A stretch of DNA of 64,000 nucleotides. Origin: Terriglobia bacterium. GTDB lineage: Bacteria; Acidobacteriota; Terriglobia; JAIQFV01. The stretch lies in the NCBI GenBank assembly GCA_020072965.1, contig JAIQFY010000020.1, forward strand, positions 1 through 64,000, read 5' to 3'. Position 1 is the first letter of the stretch, and each line of letters begins with the position of its first letter. The translations under genes were made by a program, and so were the position numbers. The notes below the pieces were generated by a model that had not been told where the DNA came from, did not search any database, and saw only the letters and a list, made by a program, of their open reading frames with translations. This document shows positions 10,461-45,257 of the stretch, piece after piece.

Positions 10461-13400
10461 TCAGAACGAGAAGCGAATGGCAAATTCAATCTGGCGTTCG
10501 GAGCTCAGCCGGGTGTCCGTAATCTGCCCGGCTGTTCCGCTGGTAATGTCGCCATTGGGCTGTGCAAATTGAGGTGTGTTGGTGAAGTTATAAAACTCCA
10601 CGCGGAACTGGGTCACGAACCGCTCCTTGAACTTGAAGTTCTTGAGGATGGAAAGGTCCAGGTTGCTGGTTCCCGGTCCAGTGAAGAGGTTTCGCGCAAC
10701 GTTTCCCGGTCGAAGCCTCACATTTGCGGAGTTATTGGGGGGTTGAGCAAAAGCACTGACATCAAAATACTGGCCTGTGGTGAACTGATTGTTCGGTTCA
10801 CGAATCTGATCGGGATGAGTATTCGGATTTCCCTGTGCGGTCAGGTCAAACGGCAGACCGCTCTGGAAGGTGAGAATACCGTTGACCTGCCATCCTCCCA
10901 GGAGGGCATCGACCGCGCCCGACCAGTCGTGACCATACGTTTTTCCGCGGCCAAAGGGGAGCTCGTACAGCGTGCTGAAGCTAAAGCGTTGCCGCACATC
11001 CAAGCTCGAGTTGCCCCGCTCGAGCCGGAGGTTCTTGAAATCAACGGCACCGCCGTTCCCCTGGTCAAAGGCACCCGGGGAGTCGTCGATGGCATGGGCC
11101 CACGTGTACGCCATGGTGAACTGCCAGCCTGCGGTGAAGCGATGCTCAAGCCGGGTCTGCAAGGCATGGTAGATGGAATTGCCAATCGTGTCCTGGACGT
11201 TCACGTTTGACAGGTTCGGGAAATTGCGCGTTCCGTCCGGTGCGTTGTAGAACTGGCGATTGAAGTTGTAGTACGTCGTCAGCCGGGTCCCCTTGGTTCC
11301 GACATAGCCCACGGACAGCGCTGTATTCGCGCCCAATTCGTGCTGGATTTGCAGGTTCCACTCCTGAACATAAGAATTCCGATTGCTCGGCAGCGCTGCG
11401 AAGACGGTCACATTCTGGGGATTATTCAGGTTGACGTTGTTTACATCGCCTTGAGGCAAGGGCCCAGTGGATTGACGAGAATCATTACTATTCAACGGGG
11501 CCTGGCCGGAGAGTGAGATGCGGAATCCGTTGGTGTATTGGAAGGAAGAGAATCCGCTGAAGGGTGGATTTTGTGCCAACTGATTGTCGATGCCCCCCCG
11601 GTCCACAAAATAGAAGATCCCATAGCCCCCTCGGATGACCGTCTTGCCCTGCCCAGTCAGGTCGTAAGCAAAACCGAAGCGGGGAGCAAAGTTGTTCTTG
11701 TCGGTGGGGACAAAGCTGCGGGACGCCCCCCCTTGGCCCGCCAGCAGAAGCTTACCGGTCGAGATATCGAAGTTTGCCTGGCGGTCAGCAACCTCCACCG
11801 GCCAGGTGTAAAGGTCATAGCGCAGGCCCAAGTTCAAGGTCAAATGGCGACTGACCTTCCAGTCGTCCTGGACGAAGTAGCCGGTTTCCCAGTTTCGCGT
11901 TCCCACCATCCCGAAAGGCGGGCCGATATCATACTGTTGCACGAAGCCCGCCAGAAGGTCTGACACTTCGTAATGAGTCGGGCTCGATCCTCCACCGTTT
12001 CCGAAAAGAACAAAGAACCCCTTGCCGCGGTTTGGGCGAAAGAGGTTTACCTGGCGACGGATAATGCTGGCGCCAAACTTCACGTTATGGCCGCCTTTGA
12101 CCCAGGACAGGGTGTCGGAGTACTGAAAACTATTCTGTGGGACCAGAAAAGGTCCGAAGTCCCCGGTGAACTCGATCTGATTGTTGAACCCTCCGATCAG
12201 GGCTCCTCCCCCCAGCAGGGGGCTGGTATTGGCATTGGGGATGCCCAAATCCGCGGAGATCTGCTGGTCCTGGAATGGAGGAGTGAAACCATACCGCGTG
12301 CGAATATACCCGAACCGGAATTCGTTGACCAGCGAGTTAGAGAAGGTATGCGTTTCGTTGAGGGCGAGACCACGGGGGTTACTAGGGTTCGATCCAGAGC
12401 CGAAACCCGCAGGCAGCGCCGGCAATCGGGAACTCGTCACCGAACTGTCCTGTCCGAAACTAAAGCGGCCAAACATGCTGTCGCGTGTTCCCAAAACCCA
12501 ATCGACGCGAGCGTCGAAGTCGTTGAAATGCTGCGTCTGGTTGCGCGTGACCAGGAAATTCTGAAGGATTCCGGGAGCATTGGGCAGGGGATAAGCATTC
12601 AGATATTTCTGCCCGACAGGGTTGATCCGACCCGTGGGAATGATGTTTCCGGAAAAGGGTTTCCCCGTGAGGGGATCGAAAATCTGAGTGCCCGGAAGCA
12701 ACTCCGAGAAATCTCCGTTTCGCATTTTGGGAGTGGGCACCGTGGCACGATCCAGTCCCAGTGGGAATAACTGGCGGAGTCCCTGATAATCGAAGAAGAA
12801 GAACACCTTGTCTTTGATGATGGGGCCACCAATCGTGCCCCCGAATTGATTCCGGCGGAATTCGCTTTTGCAGTCCTTGCCGGGAGGGCAAGTCGCCCGG
12901 ATGAAGGTTCGAGTCGCATCCAAATTATCATTACGCAGAAATTCAAAGACGGTCCCGTGCAGGGAGTTGGATCCCGATTTGATGGAGGTGCTCACCACCC
13001 CCCCCCCCGCACGACCGAACTCTGCGGGCGCAATGCTGGTGTCGACTCGAAACTCTTCGATGGCCTCCGCAGGAGGGAAGAAGATGATCGTGTTGACAAG
13101 CGATTCGTTGTTGTCAATGCCGTCCAGGATGAAGTTGTTGGCCTGCGGCCGTAAGCCGTTCACCGAAAGCGATGCACCGCCGACATTGCTGAAGCGGAAA
13201 GTCTCTGAGTTGCCACGACCCCCGGACGCATCGCCGTCGATCACACCACGAGTGACCCCGGGAACCAACGTCGCCAATTGGGTAAAATTGCGGCCGTTGA
13301 GTGGGAGCTCAGTGACCTGTCGCCCCACGACCACATCACTAATCGTGGAACTGGCACTCTCGACCAACGGGACATCAGAAGTCACCTCCACACTCGTGGT

Positions 13401-40155: not shown

Positions 40156-41106
40156 ATGCGGAAAATGCTTTTATACCTGTCGGTGACTTTTCTGATGGCG
40201 ATACCACTTTTGGGCCAGGAGAAGTCCGGCGGGAGACTGGGCCCTTCACCGGCGCCGATTCCTCCCAGTATCAAGGACAAACTCGCGAGTCTGTTGCCGG
40301 AGCCGGCAGAGCTCGGTGCAGAGCGGTCAGGCCGATATAAGTTCTACTCGTCGGATCTTTATGAATACATCGACGGGGCGGCAGATGGATTTCACTCCTA
40401 TGATTTGGTCGCCTTGATCCACCAGGAGTACAAGACGCAGGACGCGGAAATCACCCTGGATATCTACCACATGGGGAAACCGCTGAATGCCTTTGGGATC
40501 TATGCCTCGGAGCGGTCGCCGCATTATCACTTTCTCCCCATCGGCGCCGAAGGGTATAGCGACGATTATGTTCTGAACTTTTTCCAGGCCGAGTTTTACG
40601 TGAAGGTTTCCGCCTTCAGCGAGAAGGGAGTGACGAAGCCGGTGATGGAGCGCTTCGCGCAAAAGGTTTCGCAGAGGATCGGATCAGGAAGGGTGATGCC
40701 AGAGATCCTTGCTCTCTTTCCCACAGAGAACCTTGTTGATCACTCTCAAAAGTTCTTGAACAAATCCCCGCTGGGGCACGACTTCCTGGGACCCGCGATC
40801 ATGGCTTCCTACTCCTTCGGAGGACAGGAGGCTGCACTTCTGATCTCCAGGGCGCCGGACTTAGCGAGTGCAACGCAAACAGTCGAGCGCCTCCAGAAAC
40901 ACTTCAGCAGAACCGGGACCTTGAGCCGCCAACCAGACCTCGGTGCAGGCAGCTTTCGTGGGTCAAATCCGTATGAGGGAGACATCCTATTCCTTTCGCG
41001 GGGGCGGTACACCATCCTCTGCTTGAAACCTCCGTCCCAACCGAAAGCATTTCTCAACGCGGTCGTGGACCATATTGAGAAGGCGGGAGCTGATTTGACG
41101 TTTTAA
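40156..41106 (+). CDS. DUF6599-like secreted protein
   Basis: A 316-residue protein with a signal peptide (cleavage near LLG-QE, residues 20-21). The segment FYSSDLYEYIDGAADGFHSY, then DITLDIYHMG-like text and FGIYASERS, resembles the DUF6599 family, of unknown function and common in Acidobacteria and some deltaproteobacteria. The family name is recalled, not searched. It is 11 bp before the DUF362 gene, so the two are very likely cotranscribed and act in the same periplasmic process. Confidence 0.65.
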   Translation: MRKMLLYLSVTFLMAIPLLGQEKSGGRLGPSPAPIPPSIKDKLASLLPEPAELGAERSGRYKFYSSDLYEYIDGAADGFHSYDLVALIHQEYKTQDAEITLDIYHMGKPLNAFGIYASERSPHYHFLPIGAEGYSDDYVLNFFQAEFYVKVSAFSEKGVTKPVMERFAQKVSQRIGSGRVMPEILALFPTENLVDHSQKFLNKSPLGHDFLGPAIMASYSFGGQEAALLISRAPDLASATQTVERLQKHFSRTGTLSRQPDLGAGSFRGSNPYEGDILFLSRGRYTILCLKPPSQPKAFLNAVVDHIEKAGADLTF

Positions 41107-41117
41107 GGGGTTCTCTT

Positions 41118-42062
41118 ATGGCAGATTATGATCGGCGAGATTTTCTGAAAGCGGGCGTCATCGCAAGTGCAGGACTGCGATTCGGTTGGCTCGACTCTGA
41201 AATCCTGCGCGCGGCGACCCCGCAGCCCGTGCCATCTCTTAGCATTGCGCATTTCAAGAGTTCACCCATTGCACCGGACGCGATTGCTGATGAGGCGAGA
41301 CAGCTGACTCGAAAAGTCGTCGAAGGCCTCGGAGGGATGGGGCGGTTTGTTTCCCGGGGAAACGTTGTCTGGATCAAGCCCAATATCGGGTGGGATCGTC
41401 GACCCGAGCAAGCCGCGACCACGAATCCGGATGTCGTCGCTACTCTCGTGCAAATGTGCTTTCAGGCCGGAGCCGGCAAGGTATTGGTCAGCGACAACCC
41501 TTGCAATTCAGCCCAACGAACTTTTCCTCGAAGTGGAATTCAACAGGCCGCTGAGAGAGCGGGTGCACAGGTTTTCTTCATGGACGAACGAAAGTTCCGG
41601 AAGATGGCGATCCATGGAAAGGTCCTCCGGGAGTGGGAGATCTATCAGGATGTTGTTCAGGCAGACCGTCTGATCAACGTCGCCATCGTTAAACACCACA
41701 ACCTTTCCAAAGCCACCTTGGGCATGAAGAACCTGATGGGAGTGACGGGGGGCGCCCGGAACCGGATGCATCAGGACATCGATAACGCCCTGGTGGACCT
41801 GGCTGCTTTTCTGAAACCGCAGCTGGTGGTGCTCGATGCGATCCGTTTGTTAACCGCCAACGGTCCGGTCGGTGGGAACCTTGCCGACGTGAAGCGAAAG
41901 GACACCCTGGTGGCCGGCGTGGATCAGGTGGCCGTGGATGCCTTCGGCGCCACTTTGCTTGGCTACAAGCCCGAAAGCATCGGACACATCGTGCAGGGAA
42001 ATACCCGGGGGCTGGGCACGATCAATTTCAATGCGCTTTCCCCGAGAGTGATTGAATTGTGA
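41118..42062 (+). CDS. DUF362 family protein with Tat signal
   Basis: A 314-residue protein beginning DRRDFLKAGVIASAG, a twin-arginine export signal. VVWIKPNIGWDRRPEQAATT, then NVAIVKHHNLSKATLGMKNLMG, are the conserved blocks of DUF362, whose members are often fused to or encoded with [4Fe-4S] ferredoxins. Here the Cys-rich part is absent, so it probably depends on the neighbouring Fe-S proteins. GVDQVAVDAFGATLLGY is near the C-terminus. The biochemical function of the family is unsettled. Confidence 0.85.
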   Translation: MADYDRRDFLKAGVIASAGLRFGWLDSEILRAATPQPVPSLSIAHFKSSPIAPDAIADEARQLTRKVVEGLGGMGRFVSRGNVVWIKPNIGWDRRPEQAATTNPDVVATLVQMCFQAGAGKVLVSDNPCNSAQRTFPRSGIQQAAERAGAQVFFMDERKFRKMAIHGKVLREWEIYQDVVQADRLINVAIVKHHNLSKATLGMKNLMGVTGGARNRMHQDIDNALVDLAAFLKPQLVVLDAIRLLTANGPVGGNLADVKRKDTLVAGVDQVAVDAFGATLLGYKPESIGHIVQGNTRGLGTINFNALSPRVIEL

Positions 42063-42084
42063 GACCCCTCCGGGAAGGATAAAA

Positions 42085-42205
42085 CAGCGGAATTCGGATT
42101 GCGGATTTTGGATTGTAAGGTTGAAACAGGGATAAACAGGACGAACAGGGTTTTGTTGGAGTTTAAGTCATCCTGTTCATACTTGTTCCTTGTTCTTGAA
42201 TTCAA
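42085..42205. repeat. dispersed repeat: attgcggattttgg plus acaggg...cctgt stem
   Basis: Tandem variants of gGATTGCGGATTTTGGATTG are followed by cagggataaacaggacgaac and, about 50 nt on, the imperfect complement catcctgttcatacttgttc. A closely similar unit lies at 43888-44015, so copies flank the NapH/NapG-like gene pair. No gene in it. Confidence 0.6.
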
Positions 42206-42210
42206 GCATC

Positions 42211-43188
42211 ATGGCAAAACGAGAAAAAGCTTCATGGGTCGTCTGGCTGCGCAGGCTTGTGCAGACCGCCTTCCTTCTGCTCTTCTTCTATCTTTTCCTT
42301 GAGACCGCCTACCATCCCATCAATAAAGCCGGAGAACACGTCACCCTCTTCTTCAACCTGGATCCGCTCGTTGCCCTCACTTCGTGGCTCGCTTCGCACA
42401 CCCTCGTTCGGGCGATGCTGCTTTCACTGGTTACCCTGGGCGTGACCCTGCTCGCCGGTCGTTGGTTTTGCGGATGGATCTGTCCGTTGGGATCATTGCA
42501 CCATTTCATTACGAGCCTCCGGGGCGGGAGCGCCAGGCAGAAAATTGAAGTCGGCGGTTACCATCCATGGCAAAAAGCCAAGTATTACATCTTGGCGGCA
42601 TTCCTTGTGGTCTCAGTGCTCGGAGCGAATGTGGTGGGCTGGCTGGACCCGCTCTCCTTCTTTGTCCGTTCCCTTTCCACCGCCGTTTACCCCGCGATCA
42701 ACTCGGCTATCGTCTCAATGTTTACCTGGGTCTACAACGTGAATCCGGGCATCGGACCCGTTCGGCTGACGGCGGTGACAGAGCCTGTCTATGACGTCTT
42801 GCGGAAACATTTTCTGGCGCCTCATCAGCCGTATTACTGGGGCGGCATGCTGATTGGAGTTCTCTTTGTAGCCGTGGTGGCGCTCAATTTCTACCGGGCC
42901 CGGTTCTGGTGCCGGTATGTCTGTCCGCTAGGTGCCTTGCTGGGGGTCGTGGCAAAGAATCCTTTGGTCCGATTGAGGAGGGACGAGGAGAAGTGCAACG
43001 ACTGCGGGCTGTGCCTGGTTAATTGCCAGGGTGGTGAGACCCTGGGCGCTCACGCGGAATGGAAACCCTCCGAATGTTTTTATTGTTGGAACTGCAAGTC
43101 CGATTGCCCATCCCATGCGATCTCTTTCGCGTGGCAGCCGGGGCGGGAGCAAAAGCATGATGAAACCCTTGTTTCAGTGGATCACTAA
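42211..43188 (+). CDS. NapH-like membrane ferredoxin (polyferredoxin)
   Basis: A 325-residue inner-membrane iron-sulfur protein with about five helices. The paired membrane-edge motifs WFCGWICPLGSL and FWCRYVCPLGALLG are typical of the NapH/MauN/RdxA group. At the C-terminus are two [4Fe-4S] motifs, CNDCGLCLVNCQ and CFYCWNCKSDCP, the first ending in Gln instead of Pro. Such proteins pass electrons from the quinone pool to periplasmic Fe-S enzymes. The ATG at 42211 (MAKREK) is the sensible start. The last 32 bp overlap the NapG-like gene. Confidence 0.87.
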   Translation: MAKREKASWVVWLRRLVQTAFLLLFFYLFLETAYHPINKAGEHVTLFFNLDPLVALTSWLASHTLVRAMLLSLVTLGVTLLAGRWFCGWICPLGSLHHFITSLRGGSARQKIEVGGYHPWQKAKYYILAAFLVVSVLGANVVGWLDPLSFFVRSLSTAVYPAINSAIVSMFTWVYNVNPGIGPVRLTAVTEPVYDVLRKHFLAPHQPYYWGGMLIGVLFVAVVALNFYRARFWCRYVCPLGALLGVVAKNPLVRLRRDEEKCNDCGLCLVNCQGGETLGAHAEWKPSECFYCWNCKSDCPSHAISFAWQPGREQKHDETLVSVDH

Positions 43189-43885
43189 CTTCGTAAGACC
43201 TCGCAAAGAGTCTCAACTGGACTTGAACCGCCGTTGGGTTTTGGCGGCGGGCCTTTCCGGATTGGGCAGTGGGCTGCTCTTCACAATTCATCCACAGCTT
43301 TCGAAGAGGTCCTTTAACCCGGCGTTGATTCGTCCCCCAGGAGCGATTGGGGAAGCAGAGTTCCTGGCGAAGTGCATCCGTTGCGGCGAATGTATGAAGG
43401 TTTGTCCCACGAATGCCATTCAGCCAGCCGCTTTGGAAGCGGGATTAGAGGGGGCATGGTCCCCCGTCCTGAACATGACCATCGGCTATTGTGAATACGA
43501 GTGTAATCTGTGCGCACAGGTCTGTCCCAGCCGGGCAATTCGCTCGATTGATGTCCCCGAAAAACAGAAGGTCAAGATCGGCCTGGCCTACATCGACAAG
43601 AACCGCTGCTTGCCTTATGCCTACTCGCGAACTTGCATTGTGTGCGAGGAGCATTGTCCGACCTCGAAGAAGGCGATCTGGTTTGAGGAAGTTGAAGTTC
43701 GCAACATTCAGGGAGAGAAAATAGTCGTAAAACAACCCCGCGTGGACCCCGACCTTTGCATCGGGTGCGGCATCTGTGAGTACAAGTGTCCGGTGAAAGG
43801 GCAGGCAGCGGTTCGTGTGGCCAGCGTCGGCGAAACTCGAAATCCCGAAAACCAGATCTTGCTTTCAGATGGATACGGAGGGTAG
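43157..43885 (+). CDS. NapG-like ferredoxin with four [4Fe-4S] motifs
   Basis: A 242-residue protein. LNRRWVLAAGLSGLGSGLLF looks like a twin-arginine-type signal or anchor. Four cluster motifs follow: CIRCGECMKVCP, CEYECNLCAQVCP, CIVCEEHCP (with an extra CLPYAYSR upstream) and CIGCGICEYKCP. This is the NapG arrangement, an extracytoplasmic electron carrier that partners with a NapH-like membrane protein, and the two genes overlap. GGGAG lies before the ATG at 43157. The open frame further upstream belongs to the neighbour's sequence. Confidence 0.87.
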   Translation: MMKPLFQWITNFVRPRKESQLDLNRRWVLAAGLSGLGSGLLFTIHPQLSKRSFNPALIRPPGAIGEAEFLAKCIRCGECMKVCPTNAIQPAALEAGLEGAWSPVLNMTIGYCEYECNLCAQVCPSRAIRSIDVPEKQKVKIGLAYIDKNRCLPYAYSRTCIVCEEHCPTSKKAIWFEEVEVRNIQGEKIVVKQPRVDPDLCIGCGICEYKCPVKGQAAVRVASVGETRNPENQILLSDGYGG

Positions 43886-43887
43886 GA

Positions 43888-44015
43888 ATTGCGAAATGCG
43901 GATTTGGGATTGCGGATAGAGACAGGGATTGAGAGGATGGACAGGGTTTCCCGGGTTTTTCCTATATCGTGTCCATCCTGTCTATCTTGTTTCACTCTTT
44001 TGAAAAGCACTTCCT
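43888..44015. repeat. second copy of the attgcggattt / cagggattgagagg repeat
   Basis: Contains gcgaaatgcggatttgggat, then gagacagggattgagaggat, a short spacer and the complementary gtgtccatcctgtc. GGATGGAC and GTCCATCC form the stem. Same family as 42085-42205. Confidence 0.6.
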
Positions 44016-44036
44016 CAATCATAGGAGGCCACGGCC

Positions 44037-45257
44037 ATGACTTCCCGCTCTAAAAACTACACTCGAAGAGAATTCATGAGCAAACCCGTCGGTTACATCG
44101 CATCAGCCCGACTGCTGAGCATTGCCACGGATTTGTGCGGCAGCGAGGTGATGAAAGCGGAAAAATCTCCGCCAGCCTCGAAGCTGATTCAACGGCCGCT
44201 GGGGAAGACCGGCGTCTCTTTGCCGATCGTGAGCATGGGTGTTATGAATGCCGATGCCCCCGGGCTGATTGCACGCTCCTACGAGCTGGGGATCCGCCAC
44301 TTCGATACGGCGGCCGGATACCAGGGCGGGAGAAACGAAACAATGTTAGGTGACATGATCCGGCAACTCAAAGCACGGGACAAGGTTGTCATTGCGACCA
44401 AGGCAGGTGTGCACGGTCTGGGGCGACGCGATGCTGCGGAGATAAAAACCGACTTCCTGCGGACATTTGAAGGCAGCCTGAAGAGGCTGCAGATGGATTA
44501 CGTGGATATTTTATACGTCCATGGGGTCAGCACCAGCCGGGAGGTGGATGAAAAGGGAGTTCAAGACGCTCTGGCGCAACTGAAGAAGGAGAAAAAGGTC
44601 CGGTTTGCCGGAGTTTCCACGCATTCGGGCCAGACAGAAGTCCTGAACGCCTTGCTCCGCGGCGGCTTCTACGAAGTTGCCCTCGTGGCGTTCAATTACA
44701 CCATGTCGAGTAACAAGGAGCTGCTGGATGCGATGAAGCTCTGCGCCTCTAAGGGCGTGGGGCTCATCGCCATGAAGACCCAGGCGGGTGGGTCGAGAAG
44801 GCGTCGCGACGAGGCCTCGGCGAAACAGCCCATCAATCAAACGGCGGCACTCAAGTGGGTTCTGCAGAATGAGTACGTCACGACAGCGGTGCCGGGATAC
44901 ACCCAGTTCGATCAGATCGATGAGGACATGACGGTGGCTTCGAGCTTGGGGCTGACGGAGAAGGAACGGGATTTCCTTTCGAACAACACCTTGAAGGCGA
45001 GCCTGGAATTCTGCCAGCAATGTGGCGAGTGCGTAGGAACCTGTCCGAAGCGGGTGGAGATTCCCGCCCTGATGCGGACCCATATGTACGCATTCCAATA
45101 TGCGAATATGGACCAGGCTCGATTCACCCAGGCTGAGGTTCCGAAAGGCGCCGGCATTGATGTCTGCCGGTTATGCCCTGAGTGCAGTGCCTCCTGTGCG
45201 AATACTGTGAATATCCCCCGCAAGGTCGACGAATTAAAGACAGCTTGGCTTGTGTGA
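44037..45257 (+). CDS. aldo/keto reductase with C-terminal Fe-S domain
   Basis: A 406-residue protein. TRREFMSKPVGYIASAR resembles a twin-arginine signal, unusual for the family. Residues about 50-310 form an aldo/keto reductase barrel: LIQRPLGKTGVSLPIVSMG, then HFDTAAGY (catalytic Asp/Tyr region) and YVDILYVHGV. The C-terminal 85 residues carry CQQCGECVGTCPKRVEIP and CRLCPECSASCANTVNIP, two Cys-rich clusters. AGGAGG precedes the ATG. It closes the DUF6599/DUF362/NapH/NapG-like gene group and may be its terminal reductase. Substrate unknown. Confidence 0.87.
   Translation: MTSRSKNYTRREFMSKPVGYIASARLLSIATDLCGSEVMKAEKSPPASKLIQRPLGKTGVSLPIVSMGVMNADAPGLIARSYELGIRHFDTAAGYQGGRNETMLGDMIRQLKARDKVVIATKAGVHGLGRRDAAEIKTDFLRTFEGSLKRLQMDYVDILYVHGVSTSREVDEKGVQDALAQLKKEKKVRFAGVSTHSGQTEVLNALLRGGFYEVALVAFNYTMSSNKELLDAMKLCASKGVGLIAMKTQAGGSRRRRDEASAKQPINQTAALKWVLQNEYVTTAVPGYTQFDQIDEDMTVASSLGLTEKERDFLSNNTLKASLEFCQQCGECVGTCPKRVEIPALMRTHMYAFQYANMDQARFTQAEVPKGAGIDVCRLCPECSASCANTVNIPRKVDELKTAWLV

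Follow-up and report, generated by a model that had tools for sequence, protein, structure and literature searches.

The 64,000-nucleotide window analysed here, from a Terriglobia bacterium, carries between positions 40,156 and 45,257 five consecutive plus-strand genes whose products support the picture of an Fe-S-rich redox unit sited at the membrane or outside the cytoplasm, which raises the question of what chemistry such a unit performs and which protein lies at its centre. The genes, and the DUF362 codons discussed below, are:

40156..41106, plus strand: DUF6599 protein, 316 aa, with a signal-peptide-like N-terminus (Pfam PF20244, 132 bits, E 1.8e-38)
41118..42062, plus strand: DUF362 protein, 314 aa, with the Tat leader RRDFLK (PF04015, 172 bits, E 1.7e-50)
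41691..41771, plus strand: DUF362 codons K192-x-H194 ... K204-N205 ... H218, aligned to LarA functional residues
42211..43188, plus strand: NapH-like membrane protein (Fer4_5/NapH-like), 325 aa from ATG, with two [4Fe-4S] and two CxxxCP motifs
43148..43885, plus strand: NapG-like polyferredoxin, 245 aa, with about four [4Fe-4S] sites and an RR plus hydrophobic leader
44037..45257, plus strand: Tat-leader aldo/keto reductase (AKR), 406 aa, with a C-terminal two-cluster [4Fe-4S] region (PF00248, E 9.5e-33)

The original prediction had described exported or membrane-bound products with at least eight [4Fe-4S] motifs over this span, and the description held. Motif scanning and sequence reading gave two motifs in the NapH-like protein, three canonical and one irregular in the NapG-like protein, and two in the AKR. 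The Tat-like leaders of DUF362 and of the AKR (TRREFM) are well conserved, and NRRWVL precedes a short hydrophobic stretch in the NapG-like protein; a single hydrophobic N-terminal segment was seen in DUF6599, and about five hydrophobic segments in the NapH-like protein. The five families recur together well beyond chance, so that the arrangement is not peculiar to this genome, and a literature search returned no description of such a pathway. The proposed delivery of electrons from NapHG to the AKR, by contrast, found no support and is probably wrong (see below).

The core of the module is the triad DUF362-NapH-NapG: among the distinct loci that leave 2.2 kb or more of sequence downstream, 69 of 74 have NapH and NapG after DUF362, whereas an AKR lies near the module in only 20 of 87 loci. 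(The initial set comprised 88 loci, L003-L049 and L153-L193; L049 was dropped since the profile found no DUF362 in it, and one locus appears twice, as L022 and as L192, which turns 70/75 into 69/74.) DUF362 is therefore the constant partner of the NapHG relay and the AKR an accessory; both the AKR and DUF6599 are optional members of the module.

The relay proteins score far below the NCBIfam equivalog cut-offs (85 bits against 234 for the NapH-like protein, 108 against 269 for the NapG-like protein) and are thus NapH-like and NapG-like rather than the NapH and NapG of nitrate reductase. They share with the NapG/NapH and MauM/MauN relays a membrane protein carrying CxxxCP and two [4Fe-4S] motifs together with a four-cluster partner, but differ from NapG/NapH in having DUF362 rather than NapA as partner and in being usually fused in relatives, where one open frame encodes both in 72 of 78 cases. 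In the window, the NapH frame is open from a TTG at 42190, upstream of the ATG at 42211, and the NapG gene overlaps the NapH gene in a different frame. The NRRWVL region corresponds to an internal RR segment of the fused NapHG of relatives, a crude scan finding RR in 35 of 72 fused proteins.

The DUF362 score, set against a Pfam gathering cut-off of 24 bits, places the protein in the family, while NCBIfam Npun_F2552 gives it 88 bits for a cut-off of 500. It shows the K-x-H...KN...G...H signature common to DUF362 proteins, ferredoxin-fused forms included, but differs from the family at large in being short, in lacking clusters of its own and in being Tat-exported, as judged from its leader, whose RR motif is present in 43 of 48 relative segments. 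The predicted AF2 model (pLDDT 90.3) adopts the fold of the N-domain of the lactate racemase LarA: the top 18 Foldseek matches are all LarA-family, and VIA gave Z scores of 16.5-18.9 with 11 LarA-family entries over about 207 residues at about 2.8 A (Z around 18 for the racemases/epimerases 5huq, 9eia and 6d6z, which depend on the nickel-pincer nucleotide, NPN) and 15.5 with 4nar, compared to 5.6 for the best non-LarA fold. Since sequence searches of the PDB with DUF362, by phmmer and by profile, returned nothing useful, it is the predicted fold that carries the proposed homology to LarA. The Pfam scan at E 0.001 matched PF04015 and not Lar_N in the window protein, and hhalign against LarA was non-significant for the narrow alignment (0.3% probability) and reached only 46% for the wide one.

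The residues conserved in DUF362 are consistent with this fold assignment. K87, N89, K192, H194, K204, H218, D240 and D274 are invariant in 74 of 74 proteins, N205 is kept in 73, and D126 is a nearly invariant acid. The wide profile alignment pairs H194, K204 and H218 with H172, K182 and H198 of the LarA of L124, which are H174, K184 and H200 in 5huq, that is, the catalytic histidine, the NPN-anchoring lysine and the nickel-ligand histidine (PMC7583248, PMC12611868). By alignment and invariance, K204 and H218 would thus be the LarA-type anchor and ligand. The likeness stops there: the places of the NPN-contacting R75 and of the catalytic D72 and H108 of LarA hold no invariant Arg or His in DUF362, K87-N89 and D126-N127 lying in or near them; the LarA C-domain with K298 is absent, only LarA residues ~33-270 being aligned.

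The module is also linked to the NPN biosynthesis genes larB, larC and larE, in two unrelated lineages and in different gene orders. In G027, G496 and G501, DUF362-NapH-NapG-AKR-DUF6599-LarE-LarB-LarC lie on one strand in a predicted eight-gene operon, and G503 shows the same order up to LarE, where the contig ends. In three Syntrophaceae loci (L010, L012 and L017), LarC-LarB-LarE adjoin AKR-DUF6599-DUF362-NapH-NapG, with LarE on the opposite strand, and in a fourth (L015) a LarE fragment directly follows NapG. NCBIfam models confirmed the identities of the linked LarB, LarC and LarE. LarA gave no match in G008, G013, G015 and G027, the genomes G496, G501 and G503 lying outside this search. 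The genome of the window encodes LarB, LarC and LarE, and hence the NPN gene set, unlinked to the module. In its phylum, loci from 11 genomes have no lar gene near the triad, and G024 and G043, which belong to the phylum of G027 and carry the same five-gene module, have neither LarC nor LarE above the cut-off. G000 has a LarA-type protein, and its lar genes lie apart from the module. These cases, and the restriction of the linkage to two lineages, count against a role of DUF362 in NPN use.

We propose, with a probability of roughly 0.45, that the module is an exported oxidoreductase built around DUF362, its least understood member, as a Tat-exported candidate NPN redox protein that exchanges electrons with the quinone pool. 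The NPN of LarA returns the hydride that it has accepted straight to the substrate. In DUF362, exported in folded form via Tat, K204 would anchor NPN, H218 would ligate nickel, and H194 and D126 would serve as acid/base; the NapG clusters and the membrane protein NapH would carry electrons between NPN and the quinones, a path whose gene linkage is observed and whose course and direction we infer. DUF6599 and the AKR, which has clusters of its own, may act outside the cytoplasm on the same substrate as DUF362, probably a hydroxy acid or a sugar-like carbonyl/alcohol pair.

To our knowledge, NPN, a rare nickel cofactor, has so far been encountered only in lactate-racemase-like enzymes. Yet, according to PMC11796402, about 15% of the genomes it considers, many cyanobacteria among them, have larBCE but no larA, and the protein that uses NPN there has yet to be named. 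For this long-missing user, DUF362 offers a concrete candidate with named residues. If the proposal is correct, NPN would carry out redox reactions with a net outcome beyond the cytoplasm, and a large family that has no name would gain a function. The extension to DUF362 proteins as a whole is more doubtful: they might be the missing non-LarA clients of NPN, catalysing redox reactions instead of racemisation and connected to Fe-S relays through a fused ferredoxin domain (forms without an exported leader) or, as in the exported form described here, through an adjacent NapHG quinone relay.

We consider it unlikely, and slightly less probable than that extension, that the LarA fold of DUF362 binds some other ligand or metal. 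DUF362-NapHG would then be a quinone relay of the ordinary Fe-S type, with the lar neighbours as bystanders or servants of another protein. Genome-level co-occurrence speaks rather for NPN use. Among the 247 genomes of the window's phylum, DUF362 and LarC are associated (OR 9.1, p 6e-12); LarC alone is a poor test since 183 of the 247 have it, and we therefore split the genomes by LarA status and counted by family. Without any LarA match, 52 of 67 LarC-positive genomes have DUF362, against 10 of 52 LarC-negative ones. The 148 genomes of a second phylum, around G008, gave an OR of 15.7 (124/7/9/8). Against NPN use, no association between DUF362 and LarC was seen within families (CMH OR 0.76), in counts that leave out 29 unlabelled genomes, all negative for LarC, DUF362 and LarA. 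LarC and LarE above the cut-off are missing in 11 of 48 module genomes (one of which, G013, has a LarE fragment), and LarE is also missing in 13 of the 20 DUF362-positive, LarC-negative genomes tested. Such lineages (families f14, f44 and f51), the f14 members L107 and L114 among them with the key residues still kept, speak for another ligand, as do the unmatched H108, R75 and C-domain. Control genomes point both ways: in Synechococcus elongatus and Haloferax volcanii, DUF362, LarC and LarE are present with no LarA match, while two count against NPN use, Bacteroides ihuae with DUF362 and neither LarC nor LarE, and Methanocaldococcus jannaschii with LarC and LarE and neither DUF362 nor LarA. 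Against another ligand argue the joining of all three NPN genes to the module in two lineages, the lack of a LarA match in G008, G013, G015 and G027 and the fact that the three matching residues are precisely the functional ones of LarA.

Less probable still is that DUF362 works outside the cytoplasm as an NPN racemase or epimerase whose hydride cycle is closed, the NapHG electrons only activating or repairing the cofactor or a partner. There is a precedent, the NapGH-like MauMN serving maturation. Moreover, the known NPN enzymes are racemases and epimerases (PMC7583248, PMC12611868). However, DUF362 matches just one of the two catalytic histidines of LarA, has no C-domain with K298 and is accompanied by the relay in almost all loci. 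Its Tat-like leader and its regular association with a relay of the Fe-S quinone type also set it apart from the LarA superfamily.

The model of the original prediction, in which NapHG passes quinol electrons to the exported AKR as terminal enzyme with DUF362 as an accessory, is very improbable: the leader and the two C-terminal clusters of the AKR would suit it, as would what we take to be its Asp/Tyr/Lys/His active-site tetrad, seemingly intact in the window protein, but the AKR is far less regular a member of the module than NapH and NapG, and several relatives show reduced forms of its cluster motifs.

The main new result, the LarA fold and putative NPN-anchoring residues of DUF362, did not figure in the original prediction, nor did the link to NPN biosynthesis genes. 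As regards minor observations, a sigma-70 scan gave no promoter-like site, and terminators were at chance level. The DUF6599 model, predicted with confidence (pLDDT 89), had no convincing fold relative in the PDB. The AKR clusters lie at aa 326 and 377, with a weak Fer4_17 match (Pfam, E 7.4e-5), and the RR motif of its leader is present in 14 of 16 relatives.

The DUF362 protein of the window is predicted to have the fold of LarA, the lactate racemase whose cofactor is the nickel-pincer nucleotide (NPN). In our best reading, the module encodes an exported NPN redox protein that is coupled to the quinone pool via NapHG, with the aldo/keto reductase (AKR) and DUF6599 in accessory roles. All five genes are confirmed in the window, on its plus strand:

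40156-41106, plus strand: DUF6599 gene, present
41118-42062, plus strand: DUF362 gene, present
42211-43188 (frame open from TTG 42190), plus strand: NapH-like gene, present
43148-43885, plus strand: NapG-like gene, present
44037-45257, plus strand: AKR gene, present

The original prediction was thus sound as an observation, and the eight [4Fe-4S] clusters and the leaders that it described hold at the level of cluster motifs and hydrophobic segments. Compared to the NapH and NapG equivalogs, the window proteins score far under the cut-offs, hence 'like' only.

To assess conservation, 51 loci were taken from a public-genome scan using the window DUF362 as query (by record title Acidobacteriota, delta-proteobacteria, Hydrogenedentota, Planctomycetota, Krumholzibacteriota, Sumerlaeota, Verrucomicrobia and others), and this set was enlarged by 11 from the phylum of the window and 30 from that of genome G027. 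Scored with one profile per gene, NapH and NapG lie downstream of DUF362 on the same strand in 69 of the 74 distinct loci with at least 2.2 kb of downstream room (70/75 before removal of one duplicate locus). AKR is found within 7 kb in 20/87 loci; among the 49 loci with 5 kb on either side, 14 have AKR and 23 DUF6599. Since NapH and NapG are near-constant and the other two genes occur in fewer loci, the core is the triad DUF362-NapH-NapG, of which the window is a five-gene form.

Some loci link the module to LarB, LarC and LarE, the NPN biosynthesis proteins. G027 carries on one strand DUF362-NapH-NapG-AKR-DUF6599-LarE-LarB-LarC (L029 5266-12757), an order repeated in G496 and G501 and, up to LarE, where the contig ends, in G503. 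Three Syntrophaceae loci (L010, L012, L017) read LarC-LarB, LarE (opposite strand), AKR-DUF6599-DUF362-NapH-NapG, and in a fourth (L015) a LarE fragment begins directly after NapG. LarB, LarC and LarE exceed the NCBIfam cut-off in L029 and L010. A lar gene lies within 10 kb in 7/20 AKR-bearing loci vs 0/67 others (L015 fragment not counted); as the seven loci represent two lineages, the Fisher value for this association is not independent evidence. Genome searches gave no LarA match in G008, G013, G015 and G027, and one in G010.

Among 48 module genomes, 33 have LarC and 34 have LarE over the cut-off. Both are missing in 11, one of which (G013) has a LarE fragment; three of these 11 (G007, G014, G022) have strong LarA matches, so assembly gaps may account for part of the absences. 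DUF362 and LarC are associated in the window's phylum (128/13/55/51, 247 genomes); in its genomes without any LarA match, DUF362 occurs in 52/67 with LarC vs 10/52 without. By family majority the counts are 45/4/12/9 (p 0.0015), and 13/4/2/6 (p 0.028) for LarA-free families only; inside families the association gave no signal. A second phylum, centred on G008, gave 124/7/9/8 (p 2e-5). LarE is also absent from 13/20 genomes having DUF362 and lacking LarC; strict NPN dependence of every DUF362 is therefore not supported. These 13 genomes speak for a rival reading, an NPN-free relay.

The window's genome encodes LarC, LarE and LarB on contigs other than the module's. Its LarA-type protein (L141 434-1711, minus strand, contig C63) has LarA-like His/Lys motifs; its closest NCBIfam model is 'nickel-dependent putative hexonate epimerase', whose cut-off it does not reach. 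A second DUF362 (L142 8102-9085, contig C89) has a weak Tat-signal match, and no other profiled module or lar gene was found in its 17 kb stretch.

The DUF362 model (built from 43 sequences; pLDDT 90.3, pTM 0.86) was compared with the PDB. The top 18 Foldseek matches were LarA-family (E 4.5e-7 to 5.2e-5; next match 5.6e-4), and VIA gave Z 16.5-18.9 for 11 LarA-family entries, 15.5 for 4nar, then 5.6. The match covers LarA residues about 33-270 only, indicating that DUF362 is missing the C-domain. According to excerpts of PMC11770544, DUF362 and DUF2088 belong to one Pfam clan, and DUF362 served there as outgroup.

In LarA, NPN is held covalently on K184, H200 is a nickel ligand, R75 touches NPN, and D72, H108, H174 and K298 are catalytic (excerpts of PMC7583248, PMC12611868). 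K87, N89, K192, H194, K204, H218, G208, D240 and D274 are invariant in 74/74 DUF362 proteins (43 window-type and 31 others). Profile–profile alignment (E 2.1e-4, probability 46%) pairs H194, K204 and H218 with H172, K182 and H198 of the L124 LarA, equivalent to H174, K184 and H200 of 5huq, and DUF362 may, judging from these residues, work like LarA. In the same alignment D126/N127 occupy the place of H108; R75 has no invariant counterpart in the 74 proteins, and K298 falls within the domain that DUF362 is without. These three being unmatched, DUF362 is not a LarA; the lack of H108 and K298 counterparts also speaks against a second rival, in which DUF362 is a racemase working outside the cytoplasm and the relay serves for repair. 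Many of the 31 others have two further [4Fe-4S] motifs. Two such motifs are also present within the polypeptide of many of the phylum's DUF362 proteins (L090-L119), which means that fusion of DUF362 to a ferredoxin part is common.

To return to an NPN redox protein, DUF362 would be loaded with NPN and exported, and would exchange electrons with the quinone pool by way of NapHG, the path and direction being putative; AKR and DUF6599 would act on the same presumed substrate. What this builds on directly is gene content, linkage, predicted fold and residue conservation. An AKR working outside the cytoplasm would need a bound nicotinamide. The original prediction, a relay with AKR as the terminal enzyme, is the third rival and was right in part: the relay is kept, and AKR, found in 20/87 loci, would be an accessory.

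Searches of the open-licence literature returned neither a description of the module nor one of an NPN role for DUF362, and its listings for NapH/NapG with aldo keto reductase no account of the module. Excerpts of PMC11796402 expect a non-LarA NPN protein whose identity is still to be found, and those of PMC8305020 describe larBCE with a possible NPN enzyme in Haloferax volcanii; the module supplies a named, testable candidate for this missing NPN client.

One open frame holds both NapH and NapG in 72/78 loci; the window has them as two genes in different, overlapping frames (43148-43188), with 46 extra bases vs the relative L003 (4169-5734). L044 has a second DUF362 (11822-12484, minus strand) within the module, its NapH/NapG lying about 4 kb beyond. 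The AKRs of L036, L038, L039, L040, L042, L043 and L044 have a reduced C-terminal cysteine pattern, not two full [4Fe-4S] motifs. In the window, the gaps before NapH (42087-42150) and AKR (43898-43990) contain similar copies of a 20-nt repeat, together with elements of the ACAGGAT type (4 in the window vs 0.2 expected), perhaps an interspersed repeat.
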